Shown in pieces: positions 631 to 39,597 of a stretch of DNA of 64,000 nucleotides (the first letter of the stretch is position 1; every line of letters starts with the position of its first letter). The translations under genes were made by a program, and so were the position numbers. Origin of the DNA: Flavobacterium tibetense. Its GTDB lineage: Bacteria > Bacteroidota > Bacteroidia > Flavobacteriales > Flavobacteriaceae. Under the pieces are notes generated by a model. It was given only the letters and a program-made list of their open reading frames with translations. It was not told where the DNA came from and ran no database searches. The stretch is taken from positions 62,001 to 126,000 of the forward strand of contig NZ_QLST01000003.1 in the NCBI RefSeq assembly GCF_003293845.1. Reading direction: 5' to 3'.

Positions 631-2241
631 TTATTGGAATTGGTAGCCTGTTTCTTTCATTTGAGAAAAAGCATTTGTACCTAAATCTGTGGCTATTGCT
701 CTTCCGTCTAGTTTAGAATTTACTGGGCTTTTCGCTTTTAAATATTCTTCTAGCGCTTGATGTAAGGTATAGGGTTGAATTGTGACATCTTTTGCATTTT
801 TCATACGGCACATAGTTTCTAATGGTTCGCCGGTTCTGTTGCAAGACGCCATGGTGTAGGTCTTTTCTAAATCGAGCGGTTTGCCTTGAATTTTTATTTC
901 TTAAATTCTTTTGCCGTTTTCTAATGAACTATTGAATTTAAGAGTTAGTCCTGAAAAGCGCACTAGCCAACCACCAAATCGATTTTCATATTCTTTGGCA
1001 AAGACATTGTTGATTTCTTTTTCCAGCCAATTTTTTATTTGATGTCCTGTTACCTTACCCGTTTTCATGTGTTCGTTTACGGGTAGCATTCGCCAGATAT
1101 CGTCTTTAGTAATTGCTTTTTTACCTGTTTCATCAGGAACAATTGGAACACCAAATCTAAAGCCATTTGAAGTTGCGAAATCGGCCCCTGTTTTCCATAG
1201 TAAGGCATCTGTAATTAGATTGTCCATTGGGTTTTCTACTACTAAATAACGGTATAAAGGTGTTGTGGTATGTCCTACTATTTGTTGCATTTCTTTTTGG
1301 TATGGCCTTAGCGCTTGATTCACTAATTTTTGTATTTTTAGATTTGCTTTTGTTTTTTCTGGATTAACATCCATTAGTTCGTATGAAAAATTTATCATTT
1401 TTTTATTTTTCATTTTGATGTCTAATTTTCCTAAAAACGAACCAAAAGCTCCAGGTTCCACTACATAGCTGTATTTGCCTTTGATTGGTTTTCTAATCCG
1501 TTCGTGTGTGTCGCTACCTAATATAAAATCGACCTCTTTTGTAATGGGATTGTTGGCAAGTTGAACTTGTTTGGCAATACCGATGTGTGTTATTAAAAAC
1601 AACAGCTCTACTTTTTCTTCCTTTTTTAGTTTGGAAATGAGGGTTTTTAAATTTTCTTGAACGGGTGTGAATTTAATCCCTTCGCTGTATTTTGGATTTT
1701 GTCTTTCGGGAATTTCTGGGTCGTTGTATGCGATAAACCCTATTTTAATTCCCTTTTTTTCTGTAATCCAATACGGAGGGAATAGTGGTTTTTGGGTTTC
1801 TTCATCGAACATATTCGCTGCAATTACATTCGAATTGTAATTGTTCATGATTTGTATCATGATTTTTTTTCCATAGATTACTTCCCAGTTTCCTGGAATC
1901 AGTAGGTCATATTCCATTGCTTGTACAATAGGTGGGAAAATACTTCCTTTTGAAAGCATGCTTGCACCACTTCCTTGAATTAGATCTCCAGCATCAATAA
2001 AAATTGTGCCTTCAGGGTTTTTGTTTTTTTGTTCGTCTACTAAGGTTTTTATTATGGCTAATCCACCTGCTTTTTTAAATACTATCGAATCATTTTCTAC
2101 ATAAAGTTCTTCGTGAGGATTTAGGTAGGCGTGAATGTCGGTGGATTGTAAAATTGTAATATTTTTTTCTTCCGTATTTTCTTTTTTTTCACATGCGGAA
2201 AATACTATTAGTGCTGCTATTGCGATTGTTATTTTTTTCAT
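631..2241 (-). pseudogene. SoxB-like / 5'-nucleotidase-family metallophosphoesterase lipoprotein, interrupted by an in-frame stop
   Basis: The reading frame starting at 2241 encodes a lipoprotein signal (lipobox FSAC, C17), then a calcineurin-type metallophosphoesterase with TDIH (D35, H37) and AGDLIQG (D86). The usual GNHE is replaced by GNWE (N118, W119), followed by ITHIG and GSDTH and the 5'-nucleotidase C-domain. A single TAA at 901-903 ends the frame after residue 446. The same frame continues without a shift for 16 codons and then another 73 residues (MASCNRTGEP...) to a stop at 631, giving a normal family length of about 536 residues. The lost tail is part of the C-domain that holds substrate. 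The local sequence (PYWITEKKG..IGF, YNDPEIP) resembles SoxB-type enzymes more than UshA. It is last in an operon with DsrE-like and DoxX genes. The stop could be a true nonsense mutation or a sequencing error; the 446-residue product could still be made. Confidence 0.8.
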
Positions 2242-2244
2242 TTT

Positions 2245-2688
2245 TTAAAGAGTTATGGTTTTGTATCCTAGTTCTTGCAAGCCGAATATGTAGGTTAGTC
2301 CATTGGTTGTACTTTTCATTTCAGATGGCAGGAGAGTAGGATTTATGTCTAGTTTTTTCAAGGATAATCCGCATGCCAAGATTTTAAATTGTTTTTGATT
2401 AATTGCTAATTGAATTTGTGATTGCAGTTTGTTATTGGATGTAATTTCTTGAATTACTTTTCTACAGATAACGATTTGAAAATCGATTTTATTACTTCTT
2501 GTTTTGAATTCCATACCTGTTTGAATGGCTGCTTTCAAGTGTTCGACATTTCTGACTAAAAGTGCATACTTTCCTTTCTTTTTAATTGCTTGTTCGGTTT
2601 TTTTTATTTCTTGTTTTGTTTGAGCTGTTGCCTTTGGAATGAACCAAAGAAAGCTACTAATGGTTAAAATAATGATATATTTTTTCAT
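2245..2688 (-). CDS. Periplasmic DsrE/F-like protein
   Basis: The 147-residue product has a clear Sec signal peptide (residues 1-23, ending ATAQ). The mature part shows the DsrE-like alternation: a KYALLVRNVEHLKAAIQ segment, a central IVICRKVIQEI strand-helix, and the ILACGLSLKKLDI stretch in which Cys lies at the position of the sulfur-carrying Cys in DsrE-family proteins. DsrE relatives relay sulfane sulfur in the cytoplasm; exported versions like this one are common in Bacteroidota but their role is unknown. It lies 3 bases upstream of the SoxB-like gene and 5 bases downstream of DoxX, so the three are translated from one transcript. Family membership is inferred from fold pattern and context. 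Confidence 0.65.
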   Translation of the reverse strand: MKKYIIILTISSFLWFIPKATAQTKQEIKKTEQAIKKKGKYALLVRNVEHLKAAIQTGMEFKTRSNKIDFQIVICRKVIQEITSNNKLQSQIQLAINQKQFKILACGLSLKKLDINPTLLPSEMKSTTNGLTYIFGLQELGYKTITL

Positions 2689-2693
2689 ATTTT

Positions 2694-3101
2694 TTATTTG
2701 TTATAAATGCTGTATTCTTTTGGATTGTTGAAAATAAAAAACAATAATCCACCAAAAAGTGCTATGTTTTTCCATAAGGGTCCGTGTAAGATTCCGTTAC
2801 CCATTTGTACGGTAATTGTAATTGGAATTAGTACTCCAAAAAGTACTATAGCGGCTATTCGGGTATAGATTCCTAGTAATAAAGCTGTGCCAAAGAGCAG
2901 TAGTACAGAGCCCGTTATGATACCTAAAGTGTAAGGGTCGCCAAAAAAAGTTGCTGTATTTTTAAGGACAGCGTTGTTTATTCTGTTAGCTACTTTATCG
3001 GGGTGAAGTAGGTGTGATGCACCTGCTACAATAAAAATGCCACTTAATAAAATGCGTAGGATTAGAACGGAAAATCCGTTCACTGAAATTTTTGTATTCA
3101 T
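2694..3101 (-). CDS. DoxX family membrane protein
   Basis: A 135-residue protein with four hydrophobic segments. The DoxX pattern (LRILLSGIFIVAGASHLLHPD near residues 17-35, then G-rich TITGSVLLLFGTALLLGIYTR) is clear. DoxX proteins are four-helix inner-membrane proteins; the name comes from the thiosulfate:quinone oxidoreductase subunit, and other members act in redox or detoxification complexes. Its place at the head of a DoxX-DsrE-SoxB-like operon, with an operator further upstream that is shared with sulfur and metal genes at 30-40 kb, supports a role in periplasmic sulfur handling. That role is inference; the family call is solid. Confidence 0.85.
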   Translation of the reverse strand: MNTKISVNGFSVLILRILLSGIFIVAGASHLLHPDKVANRINNAVLKNTATFFGDPYTLGIITGSVLLLFGTALLLGIYTRIAAIVLFGVLIPITITVQMGNGILHGPLWKNIALFGGLLFFIFNNPKEYSIYNK

Positions 3102-3150
3102 TTTTTTTCTAATTTATTGATTATACGTTTTTTTAAATTCAACGATAATA

Positions 3151-3501
3151 CTAACCAATTAGAAACTGTTTATGTAATAAGTAAGTAGGGATTTTTTCTT
3201 TTAGCAGCGTGAAAAAAGGAACAGCTTGTGATTTTTTTTCTGTTGTATTTTTTGTGTAAGTTGCAGAAAATTTTTCAGCAGGTAGAAGAATTTTTTGTTT
3301 TTCTTTTTTTGTAGTTGCCTGCTCGGTAACTTTACAAAAGGTATTGCAAACTCTTTTATTTGCTCCAGTATTTGAGTTATTAGTAGTTTCAGCAATTGGA
3401 GTCCATGATTTTATTTCTTTTTTTAATGCACAAGGAATTAGTACTGCCAAAGTGAGTACTATTACTGCGAATTGTGCTATAGAAAACTTTTTTAAGTTCA
3501 T
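3151..3501 (-). CDS. Small membrane-anchored hypothetical protein, first gene of the DoxX operon
   Basis: The start is placed at the ATG MNLKKFSIAQF (3501) rather than an in-frame ATG 42 bases upstream, because a hydrophobic anchor (residues 6-25, AVIVLTLAVLIP) follows directly and a promoter box overlaps the upstream codons. The product is about 116 residues: one membrane segment, then a Lys/Thr-rich hydrophilic domain with two Cys (RVCNTFCKV, CxxxC spacing). I do not recognise a family. It lies 49 bases upstream of DoxX on the same strand. The -7 box at 3508-3515 leaves almost no leader, so the mRNA may be leaderless or nearly so. Confidence 0.5.
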   Translation of the reverse strand: MNLKKFSIAQFAVIVLTLAVLIPCALKKEIKSWTPIAETTNNSNTGANKRVCNTFCKVTEQATTKKEKQKILLPAEKFSATYTKNTTEKKSQAVPFFTLLKEKIPTYLLHKQFLIG

Positions 3502-3507
3502 GATTGG

Positions 3508-3550
3508 CAAATTTAAGAAATCTAAATTGAGTTGGTGTAACAAAAGTTAC
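3508..3550 (-). promoter_or_regulatory. Operator site A plus -7 box, minus-strand DoxX operon promoter
   Basis: A perfect palindrome GTAAC-AAAA-GTTAC lies at 3537-3550, and the minus strand has TAAATTTG at 3515-3508. The operator centre is 35.5 bp from the last base of the box. This is the spacing seen at six other promoters between 30 and 40 kb. It fits a Crp/Fnr-family activator bound near -41.5. Confidence 0.7.
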
Positions 3551-29208: not shown

Positions 29209-30024
29209 ATGAAAAAAATAATTTTACTTGTCATTTTGTATTCATTAAATGTTCAATGTCAAATTTTTGATAGTCCTTATCCTGGATATCGATTTTCGAA
29301 TTTTGATAATACGCCAGCCTCTGATTTAGCAAAAGCGGTCAAGGAGGAAAATATAAAGAAGATTACTAAAATTATTAAAGTCAATCCTGAGCTTATTGAA
29401 TATCAAGACCCAATATGGGGTATGAATTTACTTTGTTTGTCAATTGTTAACAACAAAAGGGAAGCATTTAAAACGTTACTAGCTAATGGTGCTAATGTTG
29501 ATGGTGTTTGTGGTAAAAGAGACGTTACCACTCCGTTAATTGCTGCAATTAATTATTTAGATAACTGTGATGCTTTTTTTGTTAAGGAATTATTGAAGAA
29601 TAATTGTGATGTAAATCTGAAAGCTGTTACAATTAATGAAAAAGGATTGATAGCTGAGGATTTACCATTATTTTCATCGGTAGATGCTAGGACTAATAAA
29701 GGTGAAGTGTGTACGGAAATAAGTAAAATAATAATAAATAATGGGGCCAATTTAAATGCTACTATACAACGTTTTCCCTATAAAAAGCCTTTTACAATAG
29801 TTGATGTATCTCTCAAGTATTTAGACTTTGATTTGCTTTTGTATCTGTTTAGTGAAGATAAAATTGAAATTCCTGAATTCATTGAGCATGAAACTATAGA
29901 AGGTATAACTAAAGTAGATTTTATAGAGTATTTAAATTTTGATAAATTTACTAATGTAGGTTCTTCTGAATTTCAAATTAAAAGAGAGAAATTGATTGAA
30001 TTGATTAAGGAGAGACAAAAATAG
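29209..30024 (+). CDS. Secreted ankyrin-repeat protein
   Basis: The 271-residue protein has a signal peptide (residues 1-18, ending NVQC). Three to four ankyrin repeats follow: AKAVKEENIKKITKIIKVNPE, NLLCLSIVNNKREAFKTLLANGANVDG, TTPLIAAINYLDNCDAFFVKELLKNNCDVNL and the SKIIINNGANLNAT helix pair. Ankyrin repeats mediate protein binding; the partner is unknown. A TAnnTTTG-like sequence lies only 2 bases before the ATG, so either the transcript is leaderless or that match is chance. Confidence 0.82.
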   Translation: MKKIILLVILYSLNVQCQIFDSPYPGYRFSNFDNTPASDLAKAVKEENIKKITKIIKVNPELIEYQDPIWGMNLLCLSIVNNKREAFKTLLANGANVDGVCGKRDVTTPLIAAINYLDNCDAFFVKELLKNNCDVNLKAVTINEKGLIAEDLPLFSSVDARTNKGEVCTEISKIIINNGANLNATIQRFPYKKPFTIVDVSLKYLDFDLLLYLFSEDKIEIPEFIEHETIEGITKVDFIEYLNFDKFTNVGSSEFQIKREKLIELIKERQK

Positions 30025-30120
30025 TAGTAAGTCTCATTCTAAAATCAGTTTACAATAATACTTCTATGATTTTACATTTAGTATAAACTCATTTTAAAAA
30101 ATATTTACAGTTTTAGTATA

Positions 30121-30165
30121 TGTAACCATTGTTACATTTATATCCCAATTATATTGCTAATTTTG
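30121..30165 (+). promoter_or_regulatory. Operator site B plus -7 box, cytochrome c/DUF3365 promoter
   Basis: Perfect 16-bp palindrome TGTAAC-CATT-GTTACA at 30121-30136 and TAATTTTG at 30158-30165. Operator centre to last base of the box is 36.5 bp. The start codon is 17 bases downstream. Confidence 0.75.
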
Positions 30166-30181
30166 AAGATATTTCAAAGTT

Positions 30182-31162
30182 ATGAAAAATTTTTTCCTTT
30201 TAATTGCTGTATTTATTTTTGCTAGTTGCCAAAAAGAGAAAAAAGAATTTCAACCCATTCCAGTTGAAGAAAGCGTTATTGCTACTAATGAACACGAAGG
30301 CAAAAAACTCATGGAAACGCATTGTTATTTGTGTCACAGTCCAAATGCAGTCGAAAATGAAGGAAGAGTTGCACCGCCAATGATTGCCATAAAAGCTAGA
30401 TACATTGATAAAGAAGGGTATACTAAAGAGGAATTTATTGCAGCTGTTGCTTTATTTGTAGAAAATCCAACTGAAGAAAAAGCAGTGATGTATGGAGCGC
30501 TTAAAAAACATGGTTTAATGCCCAAGCAAGCTTTTCCAGAAGGAAGTGTAGAAAAAATAGCCGATTTTATGTTCGACTATCAAATTGAAGAGCCAACTTG
30601 GTTTAAGGAGCATTGGGAAGGACATGGGAATGAAAATTGGACACAATCTGGAAAACCTTATAAAGTTACTGAGAAAGAAAAAACGTATGCTGACATTGGT
30701 TTAGAATATGCTTTAGGAACCAAAAAACTATTGGGTAAGAATTTAATGGAATCGATTCAGCAAAAAGGGACTTTAGAAGCTTTAGCTTTTTGTAATCATC
30801 AAGCTATTCCGTTAACTGATAGCATGGCAACCAAATATAACGCAACAATTAAACGCGTTTCGGATAAAAATCGAAATCCTAACAATAAAGCGAATGCAGA
30901 AGAATTGAAATATATTGCTCAATTCAAAAAAGACTTGGCTACTAAACAAGAAATTAAACCTGTTGTAATTGAAAAAGGAGATAAAATTCAGTTTTATTAT
31001 CCCATTGAAACCAACACCATGTGTTTGCAATGCCATGGAAAACCGGAACAAATCCAACCCGAGGTTCGAACCAAAACGTTGCAATTGTATCCTAAAGATT
31101 TAGCTATTGGATATAGTGAAAATGAAGTTCGAGGGATTTGGAGTATTACTTTTAAAAAATAA
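30182..31162 (+). CDS. Cytochrome c / DUF3365 (Tll0287-like) lipoprotein
   Basis: The 326-residue protein has a lipoprotein signal (lipobox FASC). A class I cytochrome c domain follows with heme motif CYLCH (48-52) and a candidate axial Met in GLMPKQAFP. The C-terminal DUF3365 domain (from about residue 160) has a second heme-type motif CLQCH (281-285). Tll0287-like domains bind heme and are linked to redox sensing. It is probably an outer periplasmic electron carrier or redox sensor with two c-type hemes. It has a regulated promoter at site B, and DUF6132 and a methyltransferase gene follow. Confidence 0.88.
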   Translation: MKNFFLLIAVFIFASCQKEKKEFQPIPVEESVIATNEHEGKKLMETHCYLCHSPNAVENEGRVAPPMIAIKARYIDKEGYTKEEFIAAVALFVENPTEEKAVMYGALKKHGLMPKQAFPEGSVEKIADFMFDYQIEEPTWFKEHWEGHGNENWTQSGKPYKVTEKEKTYADIGLEYALGTKKLLGKNLMESIQQKGTLEALAFCNHQAIPLTDSMATKYNATIKRVSDKNRNPNNKANAEELKYIAQFKKDLATKQEIKPVVIEKGDKIQFYYPIETNTMCLQCHGKPEQIQPEVRTKTLQLYPKDLAIGYSENEVRGIWSITFKK

Positions 31163-31165
31163 TTT

Positions 31166-31240
31166 GGTAATTGGTTATAGGTAATTGGCTATAGGTAACA
31201 TCTATTCTCCAATTACCCATCACCCATTACCCAATACCAA
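31166..31240. repeat. Inverted word repeat (GGTAATTGG / CCAATTACC type)
   Basis: The left half is GGTAATTGGTTATAGGTAATTGG-like and the right half is CCAATTACCCATCACCCATTACC-like, forming an imperfect inverted repeat right before the 67-residue DUF6132 gene. A related block precedes the 42-residue gene at 36503. Confidence 0.6.
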
Positions 31241-31247
31241 AGTAAAA

Positions 31248-31451
31248 ATGACAAAAAAAGCATATATCATCACAGGAATTGGAGTCGTAGTTGGACTTCT
31301 AGCAGGCTATTTGTATTATCAAGAAATTGGTTGTTTGAGTGGGACTTGCGCTATCACATCAAAACCATTGAACAGCACTTTATATGGTGGTTTGATGGGC
31401 GGATTATTGTTTAATTTATTTGTTACCTCTAATAAAAAGCAAGATAAATGA
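31248..31451 (+). CDS. DUF6132-like small membrane protein
   Basis: The ATG at 31248 is used; an upstream in-frame start would translate the intergenic repeat. The 67-residue product has two membrane segments (IITGIGVVVGLLAGYLYY and LYGGLMGGLLFNLF) around a conserved IGCLSGTCAITSKP loop with two Cys. Proteins with a GCxSGTCxxTS loop between two helices are common in Bacteroidota next to sulfur or rhodanese genes. The Cys pair could bind metal or sulfur; this is inference. It overlaps the methyltransferase gene by 4 bases (ATGA). Confidence 0.75.
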   Translation: MTKKAYIITGIGVVVGLLAGYLYYQEIGCLSGTCAITSKPLNSTLYGGLMGGLLFNLFVTSNKKQDK

Positions 31452-32044
31452 AGCAATTTTGGAACGAGCGCTATGCGGAAAGTAATTTTGCCTATGGAAA
31501 AGATTGTAATCTGTTTTTAAAAGAAAACTTACATTTTTTACCAAAAGGGAAAGTACTATTTGTTGCTGAAGGCGAGGGAAGAAATGCCGTTTTTGCTGCA
31601 AAAAATGGATTTGAAGTTAGCGCATTTGATTATAGTGAATCAGGAAAACAAAAAGCATTTTTGTTAGCGAATGAAAACGGTGTTCCCATCGATTATTTGG
31701 TATCGGATGTTTTGGAATTACCTTATGAAAAAGAAATTTTTGATGGTTTAGTGTTAATATTTGCCCATTTTCCAGCTGAAATTAGAAAACATGCGCATTT
31801 AAAATTGCTTGAACTACTAAAACCAGGAGGTAAAATTTTATTTGAAGCTTTTGGAAAAGAACAACTGAATTATACTTCGGGTGGACCAAAAGATATTGAT
31901 ATGCTTTTTTCGGAAGAGGAAGTTAAAAATGAGTTTCCAGATGTTGTAATTACTAGTTTATCAACTGAAAAAATAGTGTTAGATGAAGGGCTCTTTCATC
32001 AAGGTGAAGGAGTTGTTGTTCGATTTATTGGAACAAAAAAATAA
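31448..32044 (+). CDS. Class I SAM-dependent methyltransferase (TehB/TPMT-like)
   Basis: The 198-residue protein starts FWNERYAESNFAYG, the start typical of TehB/thiopurine methyltransferase-like proteins. The SAM-binding motif I is VLFVAEGEGRNAVFAAKNG, and the acidic residue after strand 2 is in VSAFDYSE. Such enzymes methylate soft nucleophiles, including thiols, selenium or tellurium compounds. The substrate is not evident. It is translationally coupled to DUF6132 and probably driven from site B with the cytochrome gene. It ends at a strong bidirectional hairpin. Confidence 0.85.
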   Translation: MKQFWNERYAESNFAYGKDCNLFLKENLHFLPKGKVLFVAEGEGRNAVFAAKNGFEVSAFDYSESGKQKAFLLANENGVPIDYLVSDVLELPYEKEIFDGLVLIFAHFPAEIRKHAHLKLLELLKPGGKILFEAFGKEQLNYTSGGPKDIDMLFSEEEVKNEFPDVVITSLSTEKIVLDEGLFHQGEGVVVRFIGTKK

Positions 32045-32075
32045 CCTCAAGTGAAAGCTTGAGGTTATTTTTTTA
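32040..32075. terminator. Bidirectional terminator
   Basis: 12-bp perfect stem AATAACCTCAAG/CTTGAGGTTATT with TGAAAG loop and T-tract, between the converging methyltransferase and TonB receptor genes. Confidence 0.88.
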
Positions 32076-34172
32076 TTAAAACTTATAATTTACAAATAGT
32101 GTAAAATTTCGACCAGGTTCTGTAATGGGTGTTCTTCCAAAATCAGGTTGGTTGTTAAATGCAAATGTAAGGTGATTGTTATAATATTGATCAAAAACAT
32201 TTAATACTGCACCACCAATTGAAAGGTTTTTTAGTGGAGAAAATCCGGCTTTAATATCCATAACTTCATAACCTGGAGTTGCAATCTCATCAAAACTTTG
32301 TGAGATTTTAGGTTGTCTTGCGGTTAAATTATATTGAACAGAAGCCCAGAATTTTTCAGTTTCATACCCTAATTTAAAACGAGTTTGTAAGGGTGGAGTT
32401 AATGGAAGATTTTCATTAAAATCTTTATTTTCCGTGTAAACGTAAGCTAATTCGGTTAAAAAATTAAAATGATTGTACAACTTAACATCTAAATACGTTT
32501 CAAACCCTGTCTTCATAGCATTATCGATGTTTCTGAACACTTTAGGGTGAATTGGAGGTGTTGTAGGGTTGTATTTTCTAATTAAAGTTTCATCAACCAC
32601 GCCTAAAATGTAATTTTCATAAATAGAATAATAGGTTGCTATTCCATAATTGATTTGGTTAATAGTTTTTCCTTCAAAGAATTTTTTTCCGTTAAAGCTA
32701 ATTTCAAATTGGTTATTGACTTCCGCTTTTAAATTTGGATTCCCCACGTATTCGTATGGATCTCTTCCAATATTAAAAAAAGCTATAAATCGTTCTTCAA
32801 TTGATGCGGAACGAGAGCCTCTACCATAAGAAATTTCTACTGTTTTGTGATTTGGTAAATACTGTTTAAAAGAAATGTTGCCACTGTAATTGGTTTCGTT
32901 TCGTTTTTCAAGATTTGGATATAAAGCTGCAAATGTTGGATCTAAATCCTCTGCATTTGAACTTACAAAGTCTAGTCTTGATCCAAGAGTCAAACTAGCT
33001 TTTTCGGTAATAAAATAGCGAGCTTCTAAAAACGCTCCCAAAGTATTGGTATAACTGTCTTGCCAAATTTTATCTTCAAAAGCCAATGGAGTAGGAAGTA
33101 AAACACCCATCATATTTCTTTTTACTAATCGGTTTCTATTTCCTTCTCTACTTAATGCAACAAAATCTGTTCCTCCAAAAAGTTTCCAATTTGTTCCCAG
33201 ATTCCATTCTGATTCTAATTTACCACCAAAAGTAGTTGCATCAACAAGTGCAATAGCTTCAGAATTAGTAAAAGAAGGTCTTCTGTAATTGCTCATGATA
33301 TGATCTACAAAAGAATAATATATTTTGGCATGTAAGCCTTTGAAATAATTGTTATTACTGGTTAACTTATAATCCAAACTGCCAATAGTACTGTCATCTT
33401 TATCGGTATCCATTGGTAAACCTGCATGTAAAACATCTCTACCAAAATTTTGTCTGAAACTAGCTTGCAAACTGTTTTTTTCGTTAAAGTCGTAACCAAA
33501 TTTAAGTCCATAACCTGTATTTCTGAAAGATGACGGAATTTCATTTTGGTTTCCATCTTCATAATTACCATAATCGCGATAACTTAAATTTCCAGCTATG
33601 TAAAATTTATTTATTCTACTCATCAGATTTATCATATTTACCGATGAATTTCCGTTACTTTCATAACCTGATGAAATGCTTCCTTGTATTTTTTTATTAG
33701 CCAGTGTACCCGTTTGTGTTACCATATTAATTACTCCACCAAAATTGGTTCCATATCGTACAGAAAATGGGCCTTTTATGATTTCGATTCGGGTAACTTC
33801 TTCTGGGTTTACCAAAGTAGTAATAGGATCCATACGATTAGGACAAGCATGATAGGCTTTTGTTCCACCGTCGTATTGAATATTTAATTGTTCGTATTGT
33901 GATGCCCTGAAGCTGGGTTCAACAGCATAATTTCCTCTTTTAATTAAGGAAAAACCATTGATGTCTTCAAAAAGTTGTCCTGAGTTTTTCGGTTGAACCA
34001 CTTTGTTTTGATAATCAGACTTTATTATTACTTGAGCAGGATCTTTTCTTATGTCTCCTGAAACAATTACTTCTTTTAATGGGGTTACTTTTATACTGTC
34101 TGAGGGTATTTCTACTTGGGCATTTACCATAGCACAAAGCCGTAGCAATGCTATAATGACTATTTTTTTCAT
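32076..34172 (-). CDS. TonB-dependent receptor, OprC/NosA-like copper receptor
   Basis: The 698-residue protein has a signal peptide (ending VNAQ), a TonB plug (about 30-155, with IEIIKGPFSVRYGTNFGGVINM) and a 22-strand barrel ending in an aromatic residue (FVNYKF). The plug has CPNRM (C110, M114), matching the CxxxM copper motif of Pseudomonas OprC. HIM (H291, M293) matches its HxM partner motif. In OprC these four residues bind copper at the outer face. It should import copper across the outer membrane. It is the second gene of a minus-strand pair with a small Cys protein, under operator site C. Confidence 0.88.
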   Translation of the reverse strand: MKKIVIIALLRLCAMVNAQVEIPSDSIKVTPLKEVIVSGDIRKDPAQVIIKSDYQNKVVQPKNSGQLFEDINGFSLIKRGNYAVEPSFRASQYEQLNIQYDGGTKAYHACPNRMDPITTLVNPEEVTRIEIIKGPFSVRYGTNFGGVINMVTQTGTLANKKIQGSISSGYESNGNSSVNMINLMSRINKFYIAGNLSYRDYGNYEDGNQNEIPSSFRNTGYGLKFGYDFNEKNSLQASFRQNFGRDVLHAGLPMDTDKDDSTIGSLDYKLTSNNNYFKGLHAKIYYSFVDHIMSNYRRPSFTNSEAIALVDATTFGGKLESEWNLGTNWKLFGGTDFVALSREGNRNRLVKRNMMGVLLPTPLAFEDKIWQDSYTNTLGAFLEARYFITEKASLTLGSRLDFVSSNAEDLDPTFAALYPNLEKRNETNYSGNISFKQYLPNHKTVEISYGRGSRSASIEERFIAFFNIGRDPYEYVGNPNLKAEVNNQFEISFNGKKFFEGKTINQINYGIATYYSIYENYILGVVDETLIRKYNPTTPPIHPKVFRNIDNAMKTGFETYLDVKLYNHFNFLTELAYVYTENKDFNENLPLTPPLQTRFKLGYETEKFWASVQYNLTARQPKISQSFDEIATPGYEVMDIKAGFSPLKNLSIGGAVLNVFDQYYNNHLTFAFNNQPDFGRTPITEPGRNFTLFVNYKF

Positions 34173-34202
34173 TTTTATATATTGTTATTGTTGCTGTTAT
34201 TT

Positions 34203-34616
34203 TTAACTTAAAAACAATATATTTTGAGGAGGATGAAATAGTTTGGTAGTAAAAATAGCGTTGTATCTATTTAGATAAAAAGCGTTTATTTTTTTATTTT
34301 TTGTTAAATAGTAAACAAATGGGCTTACTGCTTTCGTTTCTTGATAAAATAAAATTTCAACAGGGAAGCTTCTGTTTTCTGATTTTTCAGATTGTAAAGG
34401 TTTGTTAGACTCTGAAGTTTTTTCGATTTCTTTGTTTAAATGACATTTACCATTACATTTTAATTCAGGTTTACTTTTGTTGGAGCAATATTTCTCTGTA
34501 AATGCTTTGTTGTTTGTGGTGAACTCTACTACCAAATAAGAAAACTTCATAGTTTGAAAAAACATAGAAACTATTACAATAAGCGAAAAAATATGTAAAG
34601 CAGTTGTTTTCAACAC
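34203..34616 (-). CDS. Small membrane-anchored Cys-rich protein paired with the copper receptor
   Basis: The 137-residue protein has one N-terminal membrane segment (9-30). The exported part holds YCSNKSKPELKCNGKCHL (C44, C54, C58, H59), a likely metal-binding site, followed by a Lys/Ser linker and a C-terminal FHPPQNILF. Small proteins with a CNGKCxL motif and a terminal HPP are found upstream of TonB receptor genes in Bacteroidota; none has a known function that I can name. It is 30 bases upstream of the receptor gene. A distant relative is at 36717. Confidence 0.7.
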   Translation of the reverse strand: MLKTTALHIFSLIVIVSMFFQTMKFSYLVVEFTTNNKAFTEKYCSNKSKPELKCNGKCHLNKEIEKTSESNKPLQSEKSENRSFPVEILFYQETKAVSPFVYYLTKNKKINAFYLNRYNAIFTTKLFHPPQNILFLS

Positions 34617-34632
34617 GAAATTTAAAGAGGTA

Positions 34633-34705
34633 CAAAATTACGTCAAATTCTGTTAAGTTAAGTAATGTTTGTTACATATAAAGTCATTTAATGAAGTTAC
34701 TTTTA
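34633..34705. promoter_or_regulatory. Operator site C, divergent promoters
   Basis: GTAAT-GTTT-GTTAC at 34662-34675 has one mismatch to the palindrome. On the minus strand TAATTTTG (34640-34633) lies 35.5 bp from its centre and serves the Cys protein/TonB receptor pair. On the plus strand TACTTTTA (34698-34705) lies 36.5 bp from the centre and could serve the DUF2892-like gene, though its last base departs from TAnnTTTG. Confidence 0.65.
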
Positions 34706-34721
34706 CCTTTATTTTTTTATT

Positions 34722-34910
34722 ATGAAAAAGCTTCTCTTTACTAATTGGCATCTTATGCGTTGGGTTCGACTAATTTTAGCTTTTGCTATTGCATTTCATG
34801 CTATCACGACTGAAAATTATTTCTTTTTATTTTTTGCATTATTCTTTTTAATTCAAGCAGTTTTTGACACTGGTTGTGGTTCGAAAGGATGTAATACAAC
34901 TAATTCATAG
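34722..34910 (+). CDS. DUF2892-like small membrane protein
   Basis: The 62-residue protein has two membrane helices. MRWVRLILAFAIAFHAI and FFALFFLIQAVFDTGCGSKGC resemble the YgaP-type transmembrane (DUF2892) domain. A Cys pair (TGCGSKGC) sits at the end of the second helix, where the rhodanese-associated versions also carry Cys. YgaP couples a rhodanese to the membrane; here only the membrane part exists. It lies between divergent operators C and D. The family assignment is tentative. Confidence 0.65.
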   Translation: MKKLLFTNWHLMRWVRLILAFAIAFHAITTENYFFLFFALFFLIQAVFDTGCGSKGCNTTNS

Positions 34911-34921
34911 ATTGTTGTTAT

Positions 34922-34965
34922 GTAACAAATGTTGCTGTAAATCATTTCTATAGGCTTTAAATTTG
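34922..34965 (+). promoter_or_regulatory. Operator site D plus -7 box, SQR-like gene promoter
   Basis: GTAAC-AAAT-GTTGC at 34922-34935 (one mismatch to the palindrome) and TAAATTTG at 34958-34965; spacing 36.5 bp. The 22 bases around the operator are nearly identical to site F at 39399. Confidence 0.7.
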
Positions 34966-34985
34966 GTTTATTAAAACCAGAAATA

Positions 34986-36446
34986 ATGTCAAAAATAGTT
35001 GTTTTAGGAGCTGGTATTGCAGGACATACCGCAGCCGCTCACTTAAGAAGAAAACTTTCCAAAGACCACGAAGTAGTAGTGGTTTCTCCCAATAGAAATT
35101 ACCAATGGGTTCCTTCTAACATTTGGGTAGGAATTGGAAGAATGCAACCTAAAGATGTTATCTTTCCTTTAGAACCTTTATATAAAAGAAAAGGTATTGG
35201 TTACAAACAAGCGAAAGCTATATCCTTTCATCCGGAAGGAGATATTACAGAATCTAAACCTTATATTTTAGTGGAGGGTGTTTTTGGCAATAACCTAGGG
35301 AAACAAGAAAAAGTTACTTACGATTATCTAATCAATGCGACTGGTCCAAAACTTGCTTTTGATATGACCGAAGGTTTGCATCCAGGAACTAATAAAGTGT
35401 TCTCGGTATGTACTTATGATCATGCAGAACACGCATCGGAAGCGCTACATAAATTAATTGACCAATTGAAAAAATCGGATAAAAAATCTAAAATTTTAAT
35501 TGGAACAGGTCATGCTAAAGCGACTTGTCAAGGTGCGGCTTTTGAATATATTTTAAATGTTGAAAAGGAATTGCAAAAATTTGGCGTTCGTGATAAAGCT
35601 GAAATCACTTGGATTTCAAATGAATTTGAATTAGGTGATTTTGGAATGGATGGTATGCTGATGGATTATAATGGCTTCAACATGAAATCCAAAGATATGG
35701 TGGAGATGATTTTTGAAGATAGAGGCATTAAATGGATTTTGGGAGCTGGCGTTACAAAAGTGGAAGATGGGGTAGTACATTATGAAAATTTAGAAGGCGA
35801 ATATAAATCGGAAACTTTTGATTTTGGGATGTTGATTCCTGCATTCTCAGGACATGGCTTTCAAGCGTTTGATAAAGATGGACAAAATATAACCGAAAAA
35901 TTATTCAGAGGTTTTATGGTAGTGGATGCCGATTACACTCCAAAACCATATGAAGAATGGGCAGTTCAAGATTGGCCTGAAACCTATCAAAACCCAAGTT
36001 ATAAAAATATTTTCGCACCAGGAATTGCCTTTGCACCGCCTCATTCTATTTCGAAACCAAGAAAAAGTAAAAATGGAACAGAAATCTTTCCATCGCCACC
36101 TAGAACTGGAATGCCATCGGGAATTACAGCAAAACTAGTTGCGGATAATATTATTGATTCTATAAAAGCAGGAAAAGAATCATTGCATCACAAAGGTTCA
36201 TTAGGAAATATGGGTGCCGCTTGTATTGCTTCGGCAGGTTATGGCATGACGCAAGGTAGTGGCGTAAGTATTACTACATATCCTATTGTTCCTGATTATA
36301 AAAAGTATCCTGATACTGGAGGAAGAGATATCAATAAAACCTTTGGTGATATTGGTTTGGCTGGACATTGGGTGAAATTAGCCTTGCATTATGCATTTAT
36401 CTATAAAGCTAAAATGAAACCTTTTTGGTGGTTAATTCCTGAATAG
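34986..36446 (+). CDS. Sulfide:quinone oxidoreductase-like FAD flavoprotein
   Basis: The 486-residue protein begins with the FAD-binding GxGxxG (VVLGAGIAGHTAAAHLRRKL). It has the SQR/flavocytochrome c sulfide dehydrogenase layout, with NATGPKLAFD, a second dinucleotide fold and the PPRTGMPSGITAKLVADNI region. Two Cys suited to the active-site persulfide bridge are C181 (KATCQGAAFEY) and C413 (GAACIASAGYG). SQR oxidises sulfide and passes electrons to menaquinone at the inner face of the membrane. The C-terminal HYAFIYKAKMKPFWWLIPE is an amphipathic membrane-binding tail as in SQR. It is regulated from site D. Confidence 0.85.
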   Translation: MSKIVVLGAGIAGHTAAAHLRRKLSKDHEVVVVSPNRNYQWVPSNIWVGIGRMQPKDVIFPLEPLYKRKGIGYKQAKAISFHPEGDITESKPYILVEGVFGNNLGKQEKVTYDYLINATGPKLAFDMTEGLHPGTNKVFSVCTYDHAEHASEALHKLIDQLKKSDKKSKILIGTGHAKATCQGAAFEYILNVEKELQKFGVRDKAEITWISNEFELGDFGMDGMLMDYNGFNMKSKDMVEMIFEDRGIKWILGAGVTKVEDGVVHYENLEGEYKSETFDFGMLIPAFSGHGFQAFDKDGQNITEKLFRGFMVVDADYTPKPYEEWAVQDWPETYQNPSYKNIFAPGIAFAPPHSISKPRKSKNGTEIFPSPPRTGMPSGITAKLVADNIIDSIKAGKESLHHKGSLGNMGAACIASAGYGMTQGSGVSITTYPIVPDYKKYPDTGGRDINKTFGDIGLAGHWVKLALHYAFIYKAKMKPFWWLIPE

Positions 36447-36465
36447 TTAGTTAAGTATAAAGAAC

Positions 36466-36497
36466 CTTTTACCAATTACCCAACACCTAATACCTAA
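36466..36497. repeat. Pyrimidine-rich word repeat (TTACCAATTACCC type)
   Basis: It has the same word family as 31209-31240 and, in reverse complement, 24305-24352. It lies directly before the 42-codon gene. Confidence 0.55.
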
Positions 36498-36502
36498 AAA
36501 AA

Positions 36503-36631
36503 ATGACACAAAGAATATCCAATTCTCAAAAGAGGAAAATGCAAAATCCAGTTATTCAGTTTTTTAAGTTCATTTATTTGAATATTAGAATTTTAAAAAT
36601 TGTAGCTGGTGTACATGGTGGGACAAGATAA
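36503..36631 (+). CDS. Putative 42-residue small protein
   Basis: ATG 36503 to TAA 36629-36631 encodes 42 residues: a short basic start (MTQRISNSQKRKMQ), one hydrophobic/aromatic helix (VIQFFKFIYLNIRILKIVAG) and a Gly-rich end GVHGGTR. The A-run before the ATG is typical of translated genes here. Small proteins ending in a GHGGTR-like tail are, to my recollection, recurrent in Flavobacteriia, which supports a real gene. It lies 56 bases after the SQR-like gene and before operator E. Function unknown. Confidence 0.55.
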   Translation: MTQRISNSQKRKMQNPVIQFFKFIYLNIRILKIVAGVHGGTR

Positions 36632-36655
36632 AAATATGTTAGCCGTTCATTCTTA

Positions 36656-36699
36656 TGTAACATTTGTTACACAGTAATTTAAATTTTAAAATACATTTG
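36656..36699 (+). promoter_or_regulatory. Operator site E plus -7 box
   Basis: Perfect 16-bp palindrome TGTAAC-ATTT-GTTACA at 36656-36671 and TACATTTG at 36692-36699; spacing 35.5 bp. It drives the 105-residue, CxxCH and kelch genes. Confidence 0.75.
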
Positions 36700-36716
36700 T
36701 AATAAGTAACGCAAAA

Positions 36717-37034
36717 ATGAAAAAAGTAATTTTTATATTTATAGTGTATGTTGGGCTATTAACTGTGCTTCCTTCAGTTAGAGCCTTGAAAGCCTATTTA
36801 ATTTCATCTTGTGTTACGGAAAAATCTTGTGAAACAAACTCAAATTCAGGTTGCGAAACTAGTAATTTTATAATGAGTTTAAGCTTTAATGCTTTGCAAT
36901 ACATAAATGTTCAAACCATTTACGATTCAATATTTGTATTCGATTTGTTATTGGATAAAATAAATTTATTACCCCAAAATACCGCTATAATATTAGGTTT
37001 TAAATCAGCAATTTGGCATCCTCCAAAATTGTAA
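36717..37034 (+). CDS. Small secreted Cys protein with C-terminal WHPPK
   Basis: The 105-residue protein has a signal or anchor helix (5-22), then SSCVTEKSCETNSNSGCETSN (C32, C38, C46) and a C-terminal AIWHPPKL. The layout (helix, Cys cluster, terminal HPP) parallels the copper-receptor partner at 34203, so the two may be distant paralogues. The His-Pro-Pro and Cys residues suggest metal binding; this is inferred. It is the first gene behind operator E. Confidence 0.65.
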   Translation: MKKVIFIFIVYVGLLTVLPSVRALKAYLISSCVTEKSCETNSNSGCETSNFIMSLSFNALQYINVQTIYDSIFVFDLLLDKINLLPQNTAIILGFKSAIWHPPKL

Positions 37035-37077
37035 GTTTTTGAAATTAAAAACGATATACATTTAAAACATACTATTT

Positions 37078-37416
37078 ATGAAAAAATCACAATTCATGAA
37101 GATATCCTTATTAGTTGGATTCTTCTCTCTCTTTTTTTATGGAATAACATTTGCTAACAAAGGCAATTATATTTCAATATCAAAACCAATAGCTAATACG
37201 CAAAATTCAAAAAAGTATTCGGAACAAAATTGTTTTCAATGCCATGATTGCAGTGGAAATGTTTCGAAAGAATATGAAATACTTCCTTCATTAAAATTAC
37301 CAAAATTTGAAGATTCAAAAGAAAATCAAAAAATGAAGTCTTCTGTTGAATTTCAAGAAGAGCACTCTAAGCCAGAATTACAAGAATATTTTCAAGAAAT
37401 TAAATACGAACTATGA
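37078..37416 (+). CDS. Small secreted protein with CFQCHDC motif
   Basis: The 112-residue protein has a signal peptide (ending ITFAN) and a single CFQCHDC cluster (C52, C55, H56, C58). CxxCH could attach a c-type heme, but the protein has no other cytochrome features and the extra Cys at +2 is atypical, so metal or sulfur binding is as likely. The rest is an acidic, Lys-rich low-complexity tail. Its stop overlaps the start of the kelch gene (ATGA). Confidence 0.65.
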   Translation: MKKSQFMKISLLVGFFSLFFYGITFANKGNYISISKPIANTQNSKKYSEQNCFQCHDCSGNVSKEYEILPSLKLPKFEDSKENQKMKSSVEFQEEHSKPELQEYFQEIKYEL

Positions 37417-39017
37417 TGAAGAAAATAGTGTTTTTTTTGGCAGCAATTTTCGTAAGTTCATTTATGTTTTCACAAAGCACATTTGAATACGATGTTGTTC
37501 TTTCACCAAAAGTTGTTCCTGGTTTACCTGGTTTGCATTCTTATGCGTTTGCGCAACATAATGGTAAATGGTTAATTATTGGTGGAAGAAAAGATGGTTT
37601 GCACGCACGCCAACCTTTCAATGCTTTTCCAGAATCTCAGAACAATACGGATATTTATGTAGTAGATATAGCTACGTTACAATTTTGGTCAGCTTCTTTG
37701 AATGTTTTACCAATAGGAATTCGTGAGCAATTACAAGCTACGAATATGAATTTTTACCAAGATGGTACTAGTATGTATATTATTGGTGGTTATGCTTTTT
37801 CTGCAACTGCTAATGATCATATTACATTCGATAAGCTAACTTCAATTGATGTGCCTAATGTAATCACTGCAATAGTAAACGGAACTTCAATTACACCCTA
37901 TTTTAAACAGATTTCAGATCCTGTTTTTGCTATTACAGGCGGTCAAATGGGTAAAATTGGTACTACTTTTTATTTGGTAGGCGGACATCGTTTTGATGGA
38001 AGATACAATCCAATGAATAATCCAACGTTTACGCAAACCTATTCTAGTCAAATTAGAAAGTTTACTATTGATAATTCGGGTTCACAATTGAGTTTTGCTA
38101 ATTATGAAACGATAACCGATGCGGTTCACTTGCATCGACGCGATTATAATTTAGTTCCTCAGGTTTTTCCTGATGGCGAATTGGGTTACACGATTTCTTC
38201 CGGTGTTTTTCAAATTAATGCTGATTTGCCTTTTTTATATCCTGTTGATATTAAAACTTCAGGACATTTTCCACAAACGCATTTCAATCAGTATTTGAGT
38301 AACTATCACAGTGGAAAAGTTGGATTATATGACCAAACGGAAAATCGTATGCACAGCTTGTTTTTTGGCGGAATGAGTCAGTATTATTACCAAGACGGAA
38401 ATTTAATTCAAGACAATACAGTTCCATTTGTAAAAACAATTAGTCGAGTTACAAGATTTTCTGATGGAAGTTTATTAGAGTACCAGTTACCAATAGAAAT
38501 GCCAAACTTAAAAGGTTCTGGTGCCGAATTTATTCCTAATCAAAATTTACCACATTATTATCATGAAGTAATTAAGCTTTCCGAAATTACCGAAGATGAA
38601 TTTGTAATTGGTCATTTATATGGGGGTATTTTGAGTTCGTCTCCATCTGCTTTTACCGATAATCAAACCAACTTAACTAGTGCGGATCCTTCGATTTATG
38701 AAATTAAGTTGGTTAAAAATCCACTTTTAAGTTCTCCAACAATTGACGGGAGAAATCCATTTGCTATGCAAGTAAATCCAAATCCAACTAGTGGGGATAC
38801 TATACAAATTCAATTTACTATGCCGTATCAAACTACCATAAACTATATGGTTTCTACATTAGACGGTAAAATAATTGAGGAAGGAGAAATTGAAGATGGA
38901 ATTATTGGTAAAAATACAATGGCATTTGAACTAAACAAAGCAAAAGGACAAATGGTTATTATTACATTTATTTTTGATCATAAATATTACATTTCGCAAA
39001 AAGTAATTAGAAAATAA
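37413..39017 (+). CDS. Secreted kelch-repeat protein with type IX secretion sorting domain
   Basis: The 534-residue protein has a signal peptide (ending SFMFSQ) and several kelch-type blades: GKWLIIGGRKDGLHARQPF, GTSMYIIGGYAFS, GTTFYLVGGHRFDG and NRMHSLFFGGMSQYY. The C-terminal 80 residues (MQVNPNPTSGDTIQIQF ... FDHKYYISQKVIRK) form a type A T9SS sorting domain, so it is exported and anchored at the cell surface. Two adjacent ATGs are possible starts. As the last gene behind operator E it may be a surface protein of the copper/sulfur response. Its partner is unknown. Confidence 0.85.
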   Translation: MMKKIVFFLAAIFVSSFMFSQSTFEYDVVLSPKVVPGLPGLHSYAFAQHNGKWLIIGGRKDGLHARQPFNAFPESQNNTDIYVVDIATLQFWSASLNVLPIGIREQLQATNMNFYQDGTSMYIIGGYAFSATANDHITFDKLTSIDVPNVITAIVNGTSITPYFKQISDPVFAITGGQMGKIGTTFYLVGGHRFDGRYNPMNNPTFTQTYSSQIRKFTIDNSGSQLSFANYETITDAVHLHRRDYNLVPQVFPDGELGYTISSGVFQINADLPFLYPVDIKTSGHFPQTHFNQYLSNYHSGKVGLYDQTENRMHSLFFGGMSQYYYQDGNLIQDNTVPFVKTISRVTRFSDGSLLEYQLPIEMPNLKGSGAEFIPNQNLPHYYHEVIKLSEITEDEFVIGHLYGGILSSSPSAFTDNQTNLTSADPSIYEIKLVKNPLLSSPTIDGRNPFAMQVNPNPTSGDTIQIQFTMPYQTTINYMVSTLDGKIIEEGEIEDGIIGKNTMAFELNKAKGQMVIITFIFDHKYYISQKVIRK

Positions 39018-39059
39018 TTTTTTAATAAAAAATTAAGAAGCTGTTTCATAAAATTATTT

Positions 39060-39067
39060 ATATTTGT
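39060..39067 (+). promoter_or_regulatory. -7 box for the 77-residue Cys-rich protein
   Basis: TATATTTG matches TAnnTTTG. It has no GTAAC/GTTAC palindrome at the regulated spacing. Confidence 0.5.
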
Positions 39068-39109
39068 TCCAGTAGTAAAAAATAAAACAACAATTTAAAA
39101 TTACATACA

Positions 39110-39343
39110 ATGAAAAAAATCACATCAATCTTAGCTGTAGCTGCTTTTATGTTGGCTATGAATGTAAATGCACAAGAGCCTAAAAAACAACCAGCTAAAA
39201 AAGAAACTGTAAAAACAGAACGTGCTGAGGTTAAAGAAGAGAAAAAATCTTGCTCAACTGAAGAGAAAAAATCTTGTGGTTCTGATGAGAAGAAAGCAGC
39301 TTGTTGCTCTTCTAAAAAAACAACAGAGAAAAAAGCAGAATAA
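39110..39343 (+). CDS. Small secreted Lys/Cys-rich protein, probable metal binder
   Basis: The 77-residue protein has a signal peptide (ending NVNAQ). Its mature part is about 57 residues dominated by Lys, Glu and Ser, with two KKSC units (EEKKSCSTEEKKSCGSD) and an AACCSSKK pair. Four Cys in about 25 residues without aromatic core residues fit a flexible metal (probably copper) or thiol buffer. It lies between the kelch gene and the efflux operon and has its own promoter and terminator. No named family recognised. Confidence 0.7.
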   Translation: MKKITSILAVAAFMLAMNVNAQEPKKQPAKKETVKTERAEVKEEKKSCSTEEKKSCGSDEKKAACCSSKKTTEKKAE

Positions 39344-39364
39344 TATTCTGAATATATTTCAATC

Positions 39365-39397
39365 AAAAGCGTTCCGATTTTCGGAACGCTTTTTTTG
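39365..39397 (+). terminator. Terminator of the Cys-rich protein gene
   Basis: 12-bp perfect stem AAAGCGTTCCGA/TCGGAACGCTTT with a TTT loop and seven T's. It ends one base before operator F. Confidence 0.88.
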
Positions 39398-39398
39398 T

Positions 39399-39442
39399 GT
39401 AACAAATGTTGCAGTAAAGTTTCGAAATACGCGATACATTTG
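39399..39442 (+). promoter_or_regulatory. Operator site F plus -7 box
   Basis: GTAAC-AAAT-GTTGC at 39399-39412 and TACATTTG at 39435-39442; spacing 36.5 bp. The nearest downstream element is a terminator at 39491, not a long gene. Confidence 0.7.
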
Positions 39443-39447
39443 TACAT

Positions 39448-39521
39448 AACATTCGATGAGAAAGAATTGTTTTTAGTTTTATTGGTTAGTACAAAAGCGC
39501 TCTTGTAGCGCTTTTGTTTTT
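39448..39521 (+). ncRNA. Putative short regulated transcript (sRNA or attenuated leader)
   Basis: A complete promoter (site F) is followed about 45 bases after the expected start by a strong intrinsic terminator (11-bp stem 39491-39501 with 39507-39517, loop CTTGT, T tail). The transcript would be about 70-75 nt. It contains a 6-codon frame ATG-AGA-AAG-AAT-TGT-TTT-TAG at 39456-39476. It may be a small RNA, a leader-peptide transcript, or a leader of the TolC operon that is mostly terminated. The ends are estimates. Confidence 0.45.
39491..39521 (+). terminator. Intrinsic terminator between operators F and G
   Basis: ACAAAAGCGCT-CTTGT-AGCGCTTTTGT stem-loop followed by T's, immediately before the GTTAC elements of the efflux promoter. 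Confidence 0.8.
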
Positions 39522-39587
39522 GTTACAAATGTTACGCTCCTATGTAACTCTTGTTACCAACCACGCATTTATCTTGAACTAAATTTG
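39522..39587 (+). promoter_or_regulatory. Operator site G (tandem) plus -7 box, TolC/RND promoter
   Basis: GTAAC-TCTT-GTTAC at 39544-39557 is a perfect palindrome 36.5 bp from TAAATTTG at 39580-39587. A second, imperfect copy GTTAC-AAAT-GTTAC is at 39522-39535, with centres 22 bp apart (two helical turns). The ATG follows 10 bases after the box. Confidence 0.75.
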
Positions 39588-39597
39588 CTTCAAATAA

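Follow-up and report, generated by a model that had tools for sequence, protein, structure and literature searches.

How are promoters of seemingly unrelated genes in one chromosomal region tied together by a single operator, and which protein reads it? The question arises from a stretch of 64,000 nucleotides of the Flavobacterium tibetense genome (contig NZ_QLST01000003.1, positions 62,001 to 126,000; “the window” denotes this whole stretch), in which the palindrome GTAAC-N4-GTTAC is repeatedly found at a fixed distance from a promoter box. One activator of the Crp/Fnr family, encoded on contig C7 of the same genome, probably drives the operators of the window by class II activation of a sulfide and sulfane-sulfur regulon, with persulfide or polysulfide as the proposed signal.

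The operator pattern GTAAC-N4-GTTAC with at most one mismatch occurred 12 times in the window, compared to a mean of 1.25 and a maximum of 5 in 100 shuffles. All seven positions given in an initial annotation of the window were recovered, as exact copies at 3537, 30122, 36657, and 39544, and with one mismatch at 34662, 34922, and 39399. The further copies at 6359, 9040, 39522, 43965, and 45390 had one mismatch each and no exact TAnnTTTG at a gap of 21 or 22 bp; the copy at 45390 is inside a reading frame and has a box with one mismatch. A TAnnTTTG-type box is the promoter consensus of the Bacteroidota. Around the 12 copies, in both directions, exact boxes were found three times at gap 21, four times at gap 22, and three times at all remaining gaps between 0 and 69 pooled, giving a binomial P of about 4e-14 for gaps 21 and 22 together, both of which had been taken beforehand from the initial annotation of the same data. 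The distance of 35.5 or 36.5 bp from the operator center to the last base of the box, claimed there as a fixed spacing, was confirmed.

The source genome (G000) comprises 2.74 Mb in 56 contigs. A genome-wide scan for motif plus box, as the initial annotation had suggested, agreed with it for one of the two gaps: motif-N22-TAnnTTTG with at most two mismatches was found at 20 places compared to 6 for the pattern read backwards, and motif-N21-TAnnTTTG was not enriched (12 places versus 13 in the control). Three minus-strand places were within reading frames, and some lower-scoring places located in reading frames are probably chance matches. That the motif as a whole arises by chance in DNA rich in A and T might be argued from the bare exact motif, which is barely above its reversed control in the genome (10 versus 7 places). 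This explanation has a negligible probability and was refuted by the motif with the fixed-spacing box, which was more frequent than its controls at all three levels, in the window, genome-wide, and in the family sample described below. Genes outside the window that are led by the operator code for a rhodanese-domain protein, a P5C-dehydrogenase-like protein, and a DUF983-like protein (all on contig C12), a persulfide-dioxygenase-like protein (C7), a LysE-type transporter (C1), an FNR-like protein (C55), and a thioredoxin-like protein (C11).

The fixed spacing to TAnnTTTG would place the palindrome near −41.5 from the predicted start; operators of the Crp/Fnr family are palindromes at about this position or farther upstream. 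No gene for a member of this family had been seen in the window, correctly so because all four places in the whole genome that matched the Crp helix-turn-helix family, two of them above the family cut-off, are on other contigs (0 of 4 on that of the window). The candidate activator is a 210-amino-acid Crp/Fnr protein (G000:C7:24693-25322) with scores of 40.2 bits for PF00027 (cut-off 27.5) and 31.9 bits for PF13545 (cut-off 27). A fold search matched it to Crp/Fnr structures, and its closest solved relatives by sequence were 3dv8 (E = 9.6e-16) and NtcA (2xgx, E = 5.5e-12). The regulator gene is followed directly by a TauE/SafE gene and then by the persulfide-dioxygenase-like gene, which was labeled by its domain composition, a metallo-beta-lactamase domain and two rhodanese stretches, with NCBIfam hits below the cut-off. 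The operator of this third gene overlaps the final bases of TauE. In locus L237, a copy of the regulator has an operator before its own gene.

The C7-type protein and the motif-box pattern with at most one mismatch were searched in the same 149 genomes of the family. An ortholog was scored as strong at E values of 1e-60 or below; 116 of the 149 genomes had one and contained 527 sites (control, 41), while 10 genomes with a weaker match only had 4 sites (control, 3) and 23 genomes with no match had 5 (control, 3), so that all 33 genomes without a strong ortholog accounted for 9 sites (control, 6). At least two sites were found in 102 of the 116 genomes with a strong ortholog versus 1 of the 33 without (Fisher P = 1.9e-20; this and the other P values overstate independence because the genomes share common ancestry). 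Many of the genomes that lack the regulator are small, and genome size was therefore checked. Among the 33 genomes without the regulator, 16 had at least 2.6 Mb (58.1 Mb in total) and contained 7 sites (control, 5), and ten genomes with the regulator and at most 2.4 Mb (20.7 Mb in total) contained 37 sites. Genome size does not explain the co-occurrence of regulator and sites.

These genomes also bear on a second possible binder, the FNR-like protein of contig C55, which has a two-mismatch site upstream of its own gene. The mean number of sites was 5.15 in the 39 genomes that have the C7-type regulator but lack a strong FNR-like match, 4.23 in the 77 genomes with both, 0.45 in the 11 genomes with the FNR-like protein only, and 0.18 in the 22 genomes with neither. 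With 5.15 sites for the C7 type alone versus 0.45 for the FNR-like protein alone, the latter was rejected as the binder, and its responsibility for the operators is most improbable. The site upstream of the FNR-like gene (G000:C55:17873, L032) may possibly link the two regulators.

Within the genus, 40 of 101 genomes had a strong ortholog and contained 179 sites (control, 7), and the 61 genomes without one nevertheless contained 88 sites (control, 12). In 20 site-bearing stretches from ten of these 61 genomes, the same kinds of genes were recognized by eye behind the sites, namely, rhodanese pairs and persulfide-dioxygenase-like, SQR-like, TolC, DUF983-like, and cytochrome c genes, and the half-sites were often GTGAC. 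Following up these stretches uncovered a diverged ortholog with Glu at residue 183. In genome G127, this regulator has 40% identity, is encoded near rhodanese, TauE, cydAB, persulfide-dioxygenase-like, and YeeE/YedE genes, and contains the recognition helix SREVVSR compared to SRVVISR in the first type. The Glu-type regulator and the GTGAC pattern were searched in the same 101 genomes, with mixed sites counted in both patterns. The 38 genomes with the Val type only contained 165 GTAAC-pattern and 10 GTGAC-pattern hits; the respective numbers were 85 and 78 in the 45 genomes with the Glu type only, 14 and 3 in the 2 genomes with both types, and 3 and 2 in the 16 genomes with neither. At least one GTGAC-pattern hit was present in 42 of the 45 Glu-only genomes versus 9 of the 38 Val-only genomes (Fisher P = 2.5e-11).

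Residue 183 was Val in all 109 aligned rows of the first type and Glu in all 30 of the second; the 30 Glu rows are those of the 49 Glu-type matching places that were obtained as loci, and L064, which had no usable sequence, was left out of the row counts. Outside the family, 10 of 20 ortholog stretches contained a site, defined as GTRAC-N4-GTYAC with a box at gap 21 to 23 and at most one box mismatch, and the remaining 10 contained no such site. Residue 183 and the site type were consistent in all 10 site-bearing loci, five with Val and A-type sites only and five with Glu and at least one G (Fisher P = 0.008). Val-type and Glu-type regulators coexist in G230 and G239 as well as in L339, where the second regulator is of the Glu type and is accompanied by a GTGAC-type site; this coexistence suggests that the regulators were duplicated and use different sets of operators. 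As far as sequence association reaches, Val183 regulators go with GTAAC sites and Glu183 regulators with sites that contain GTGAC. Glu181 of CRP contacts an operator base, and the exchange at position 183 fits that contact. A residue-base specificity rule of this kind is described for Crp/Fnr regulators in the portion of PMC1274295 used here. The claim of one Crp/Fnr-type activator acting near −41.5 is strongly supported at the sequence level: the enrichment tracks one gene over the 149 family genomes and, once the diverged ortholog is included, over the 101 genus genomes, and the operator covaries with a residue of the recognition helix.

The biological meaning of the regulon was approached from the genes behind the sites in other genomes. 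In 60 stretches of 14 family genomes, representing most of the sites listed, 71 distinct sites were found, 67 of them with an assignable gene. Among these listed sites, the first place was taken by the persulfide-dioxygenase-like/rhodanese-domain cluster (13 of 67), followed by TauE/SafE (9), DUF983-like proteins and TolC (7 each), YeeE (5), thioredoxin-like and cysteine-containing proteins (3 each), cytochrome c peroxidase-like, SQR-like, cytochrome c, SulP-like, and DUF2892-like proteins (2 each), a peroxiredoxin-like protein (1), and nine single cases, which included SoxC-like, DsrE-like, cydA, P5C dehydrogenase, a LacI-type regulator, and the regulator copy. These genes were named by eye from their translations except where a family scan was available. 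A set of 80 named regulator loci, many from close species and many cut by contig ends, contained 70 sites, distributed over 45 of the loci, and the reversed control had no hit. The first gene after these 70 sites was persulfide-dioxygenase-like in 33 cases, TauE in 9, YeeE in 6, TolC in 3, a cytochrome and a SoxC-like gene in 1 each, and without a label in 17. The position of the sites would therewith make genes for the oxidation of sulfide and sulfane sulfur targets of the regulator. The initial annotation had termed the regulon one of sulfur, copper, and redox; its sulfur part is supported by these recurring genes, and its copper part is weaker, being based on the OprC-like receptor and its cysteine-containing partner of the window.

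The small membrane proteins with CxxC motifs that resemble DUF983 recur behind sites (G000:C12:75997 [L037], L189, L205, L210, L228, L233, L236, L240, L248, and L252). A P5C-dehydrogenase-like gene, coding for an enzyme of the proline pathway within a sulfur regulon, has a site in the source genome (G000:C12:188671, L022) and in G101 (L211).

The same regulator and operator may respond to another signal, such as copper, peroxide or disulfide stress, nitric oxide, or a small metabolite as for NtcA, and the sulfur genes would then make up part of a broader response. The targets include the OprC-like receptor, an RND pump, thioredoxin-like, peroxiredoxin, and cytochrome c peroxidase-like proteins, and cydA; oxidants or metals can act on cysteine pairs; and NtcA is among the nearest solved relatives. 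On the other hand, persulfide-dioxygenase/rhodanese, TauE/SafE, and YeeE genes are the most frequent ones behind the site, and the regulator gene adjoins those sulfur genes in many loci, with persulfide-dioxygenase-like genes in 48, TauE in 42, and YeeE in 37 of the 80 named loci. A different signal is therefore possible but rather unlikely.

The signal proposed here, persulfide or polysulfide, leads to the cysteines of the regulator. The only cysteines of the C7 protein are C77, C83, and C84 (C77-x5-C83-C84), and no N-terminal cysteines for a [4Fe-4S] cluster of the FNR type are present in it. C77 was found in 139 of 139 aligned rows, each with a second cysteine nearby. C83 was present in 117 of the 139 rows; the other 22, from Lutibacter and its relatives, have Ser and Ala in place of C83 and C84 and a Cys at the position that aligns with S90. 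The loop from C77 to C84 aligns with a loop of NtcA that presumably belongs to the effector-pocket region. NtcA, the global regulator of nitrogen metabolism in cyanobacteria, binds GTA-N8-TAC near −41.5, uses 2-oxoglutarate as effector, and targets nitrogen genes. The C7 regulator resembles NtcA in the overall match given above and in the recognition helix (STRVTVTRLL in NtcA and TSRVVISRLL in the C7 regulator) but differs in that NtcA lacks C-x5-C in the aligned loop and that the C7 regulator scores 52.5 bits on the NCBIfam NtcA equivalog, which has a cut-off of 244.95. The Crp/Fnr protein 3dv8 from Eubacterium rectale, the best match by sequence to a known structure, has a C-x5-C of identical spacing in the corresponding loop but a different helix, SHREVITR, and the title of its record names no function.

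From these data, the following mechanism may be drawn. The window would contain part of the regulon of the activator that C7 encodes. A dimer of the C7 protein would bind GTAAC-N4-GTTAC centered near −41.5 and recruit RNA polymerase to the TAnnTTTG promoter; since the site is centered near −41.5 of a −7 box, we infer class II activation and not repression. The regulon would oxidize, transfer, import, and export sulfide and sulfane sulfur, with an SQR-like enzyme, a cytochrome c, the DoxX run, a TonB receptor and cysteine-containing partners, an RND pump, and a small RNA as the putative contribution of the window. Because the cysteines align with the effector-pocket loop, a persulfide sensor is proposed, in which persulfide or polysulfide would react, within what was once the nucleotide pocket, with C77 and the second cysteine, C83/C84 or the one at the position of S90 in Lutibacter-type proteins. 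Such a thiol switch, suggested by the compensating cysteine pattern and the sulfur regulon, has in our estimation an even chance of being correct. Evenly balanced as well is the wider proposal of a Bacteroidota-wide Crp/Fnr subfamily in which the pocket was turned into a cysteine sensor of persulfide or polysulfide, with positive control of the oxidation of sulfide, of the transfer and export of sulfane sulfur, and of a small RNA of its own, and with a one-residue shift between GTAAC and GTGAC.

Neither the operator nor the protein family is new. The consensus GTAACnnnnGTTAC was predicted in 2005 for the HcpR2 branch of the Crp/Fnr family in Bacteroides and others, with hcp and thus nitric oxide stress as the predicted regulon and a Pro where CRP has Glu181, according to the part of PMC1274295 considered. 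An HcpR2-type nitric oxide regulator might accordingly be the binder, with an identical operator consensus and the same protein family. As judged from this published description of HcpR2, the regulators here differ from it by Val (109 of 109) or Glu (30 of 30) instead of the reported Pro and by the sulfur genes among the targets recognized, hcp being the predicted target of HcpR2. The HcpR of Porphyromonas gingivalis (9day) was absent from the sequence matches up to an E value of 10 and appeared in the fold search only, and hcp was not recognized behind the sites read, with no search aimed at hcp. Identity with HcpR2 is, on these comparisons, quite improbable. The known sulfane-sulfur regulators FisR, SqrR, CstR, CsoR, OxyR, and MarR-type proteins, as described in PMC11211675, use cysteines to control genes of sulfur oxidation, as is proposed for the C7 regulator, but belong to other protein families. 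SqrR and CstR, in which two cysteines become joined by a tetrasulfide or disulfide, are repressors, whereas an activator is proposed here. The terms “crp” and “fnr” were absent from the main text of this review. Neither a Crp/Fnr-type sulfane-sulfur regulator or regulon, as judged by the titles and opening parts of the abstracts of the papers listed, nor a description of a regulator of flavobacterial sulfide-oxidation genes was found in the literature searched, a coverage that excluded most subscription papers and all preprints.

Evaluation of the C7 regulator as a sulfur-responsive activator of these operators needs to consider the observations that speak against it. Besides the bare motif and the gap-21 pattern, which stay close to their controls in the source genome, and the common descent of the genomes behind the P values, these are the strong ortholog without any site at this cut-off in G045, G122, and G130; the sites in G207, including one that precedes a cytochrome c gene (L265), a genome in which neither regulator type has a strong match; the GTGAC-pattern hits in 9 Val-only genomes; and the origin of the five site-bearing Glu loci outside the family from two families only. 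The recurrent DUF983-like, TolC/RND, and P5C dehydrogenase targets are not obvious sulfur genes. With respect to the sensor, L310, outside the set of 139 rows, has C77 but no second cysteine, and the structure model has low confidence around the cysteines of the loop (block values of 63 and 59 for pLDDT, the predicted local distance difference test), so that no distances were taken from the model.

The operators, boxes, and genes of the window are compiled in Table 1. The gene labels of the initial annotation were in part retained: DoxX, the Tll0287-like protein, and DUF6132 pass the Pfam cut-offs, and the protein labeled SoxB-like has the 5_nucleotid_C and Metallophos domains; the OprC-like and SQR-like labels remained below the NCBIfam cut-offs, and “DUF2892-like” at 34722 and “PII-like” at 45375 were without a Pfam hit.

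Table 1. Operators with promoter boxes, predicted small RNA, and genes in the window. Gap, number of bases between operator and box. Gene labels were assigned by eye from the translations unless a family scan is named.
Feature	Position	Strand	Remarks
Operator GTAACTTTTGTTAC (3537-3550), box TAAATTTG (3508-3515)	3508..3550	minus	Gap 21
Gene run behind 3537 operator	901..3501	minus	
116-amino-acid cysteine-containing protein	3151-3501	minus	3537 run
DoxX	2694-3101	minus	3537 run; passes Pfam cut-off
DsrE-like protein	2245-2688	minus	3537 run; label from initial annotation and by eye, no Pfam hit
5'-Nucleotidase/metallophosphatase (SoxB-like)	901-2241	minus	3537 run; 5_nucleotid_C and Metallophos domains
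Operator GTAACCATTGTTAC (30122-30135), box TAATTTTG (30158-30165)	30122..30165	plus	Gap 22
Cytochrome c/Tll0287-like protein	30182-31162	plus	PF11845 (former DUF3365), passes Pfam cut-off
DUF6132 protein	31185-31451	plus	Passes Pfam cut-off
Methyltransferase-like protein	31448-32044	plus	Label from initial annotation
OprC-like TonB receptor	32076-34172	minus	NCBIfam TonB-copper 251.6 bits, below cut-off of 472
Cysteine-containing protein	34203-34616	minus	Behind 34662 operator
Two-way operator GTAATGTTTGTTAC (34662-34675)	34633..34705	both	
Minus-side box of 34662 operator, TAATTTTG	34633-34640	minus	Gap 21; exact
Plus-side box of 34662 operator, TACTTTTA	34698-34705	plus	Gap 22; one mismatch
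62-amino-acid membrane-type protein (“DUF2892-like”)	34722..34910	plus	C-terminal cysteines; no Pfam hit at E = 0.001
Operator GTAACAAATGTTGC (34922-34935), box TAAATTTG (34958-34965)	34922..34965	plus	Gap 22
SQR-like flavoprotein	34986..36446	plus	Pyr_redox_2; type III SQR model 55.9 bits, below cut-off of 525
Operator GTAACATTTGTTAC (36657-36670), box TACATTTG (36692-36699)	36657..36699	plus	Gap 21
Small cysteine-containing proteins	36717-37034, 37078-37416, 39109-39342	plus	Behind 36657 operator
Kelch-like protein	37413-39017	plus	Behind 36657 operator
Operator GTAACAAATGTTGC (39399-39412), box TACATTTG (39435-39442)	39399..39442	plus	Gap 22; promoter of predicted small RNA
Predicted small RNA	39449..39522, ends approximate	plus	Core TTTAGTTTTATTGGTTAGT, then terminator hairpin; 39399 operator as promoter
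Operator GTAACTCTTGTTAC (39544-39557), box TAAATTTG (39580-39587)	39544..39587	plus	Gap 22
TolC-like protein	39598-40917	plus	Behind 39544 operator
RND adaptor	40972-42042	plus	Behind 39544 operator
RND pump	42116-45361	plus	Behind 39544 operator
101-amino-acid “PII-like” protein	45375-45680	plus	No Pfam hit at E = 0.001

The short RNA suggested for this region receives support from its conservation in four Flavobacterium genomes (G000, G160, G214, and G180), in all of which the 19-base core TTTAGTTTTATTGGTTAGT is invariant and followed by a hairpin and a T-rich tail, and the distance between its operator and that of the TolC gene is 145 to 149 bp. An Rfam scan of positions 29900 to 40000 gave no family at the gathering score, and no convincing 11-base match to an antisense target of the predicted RNA was found within the window. 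The gap of 21 in the promoter at 36657 and the gene order from the protein encoded at 36717 through the pump are preserved in G160 and G214.

The outcome for flavobacterial sulfide oxidation is a specific regulator gene, an operator, a spacing rule, a list of targets, and a one-residue test of specificity. The covariation of regulator and operator is a natural experiment on a change of specificity in the Crp/Fnr family. If the proposed signal is true, the Crp/Fnr family would join the known persulfide regulators, and it would do so with an activator, unlike the repressors SqrR and CstR.

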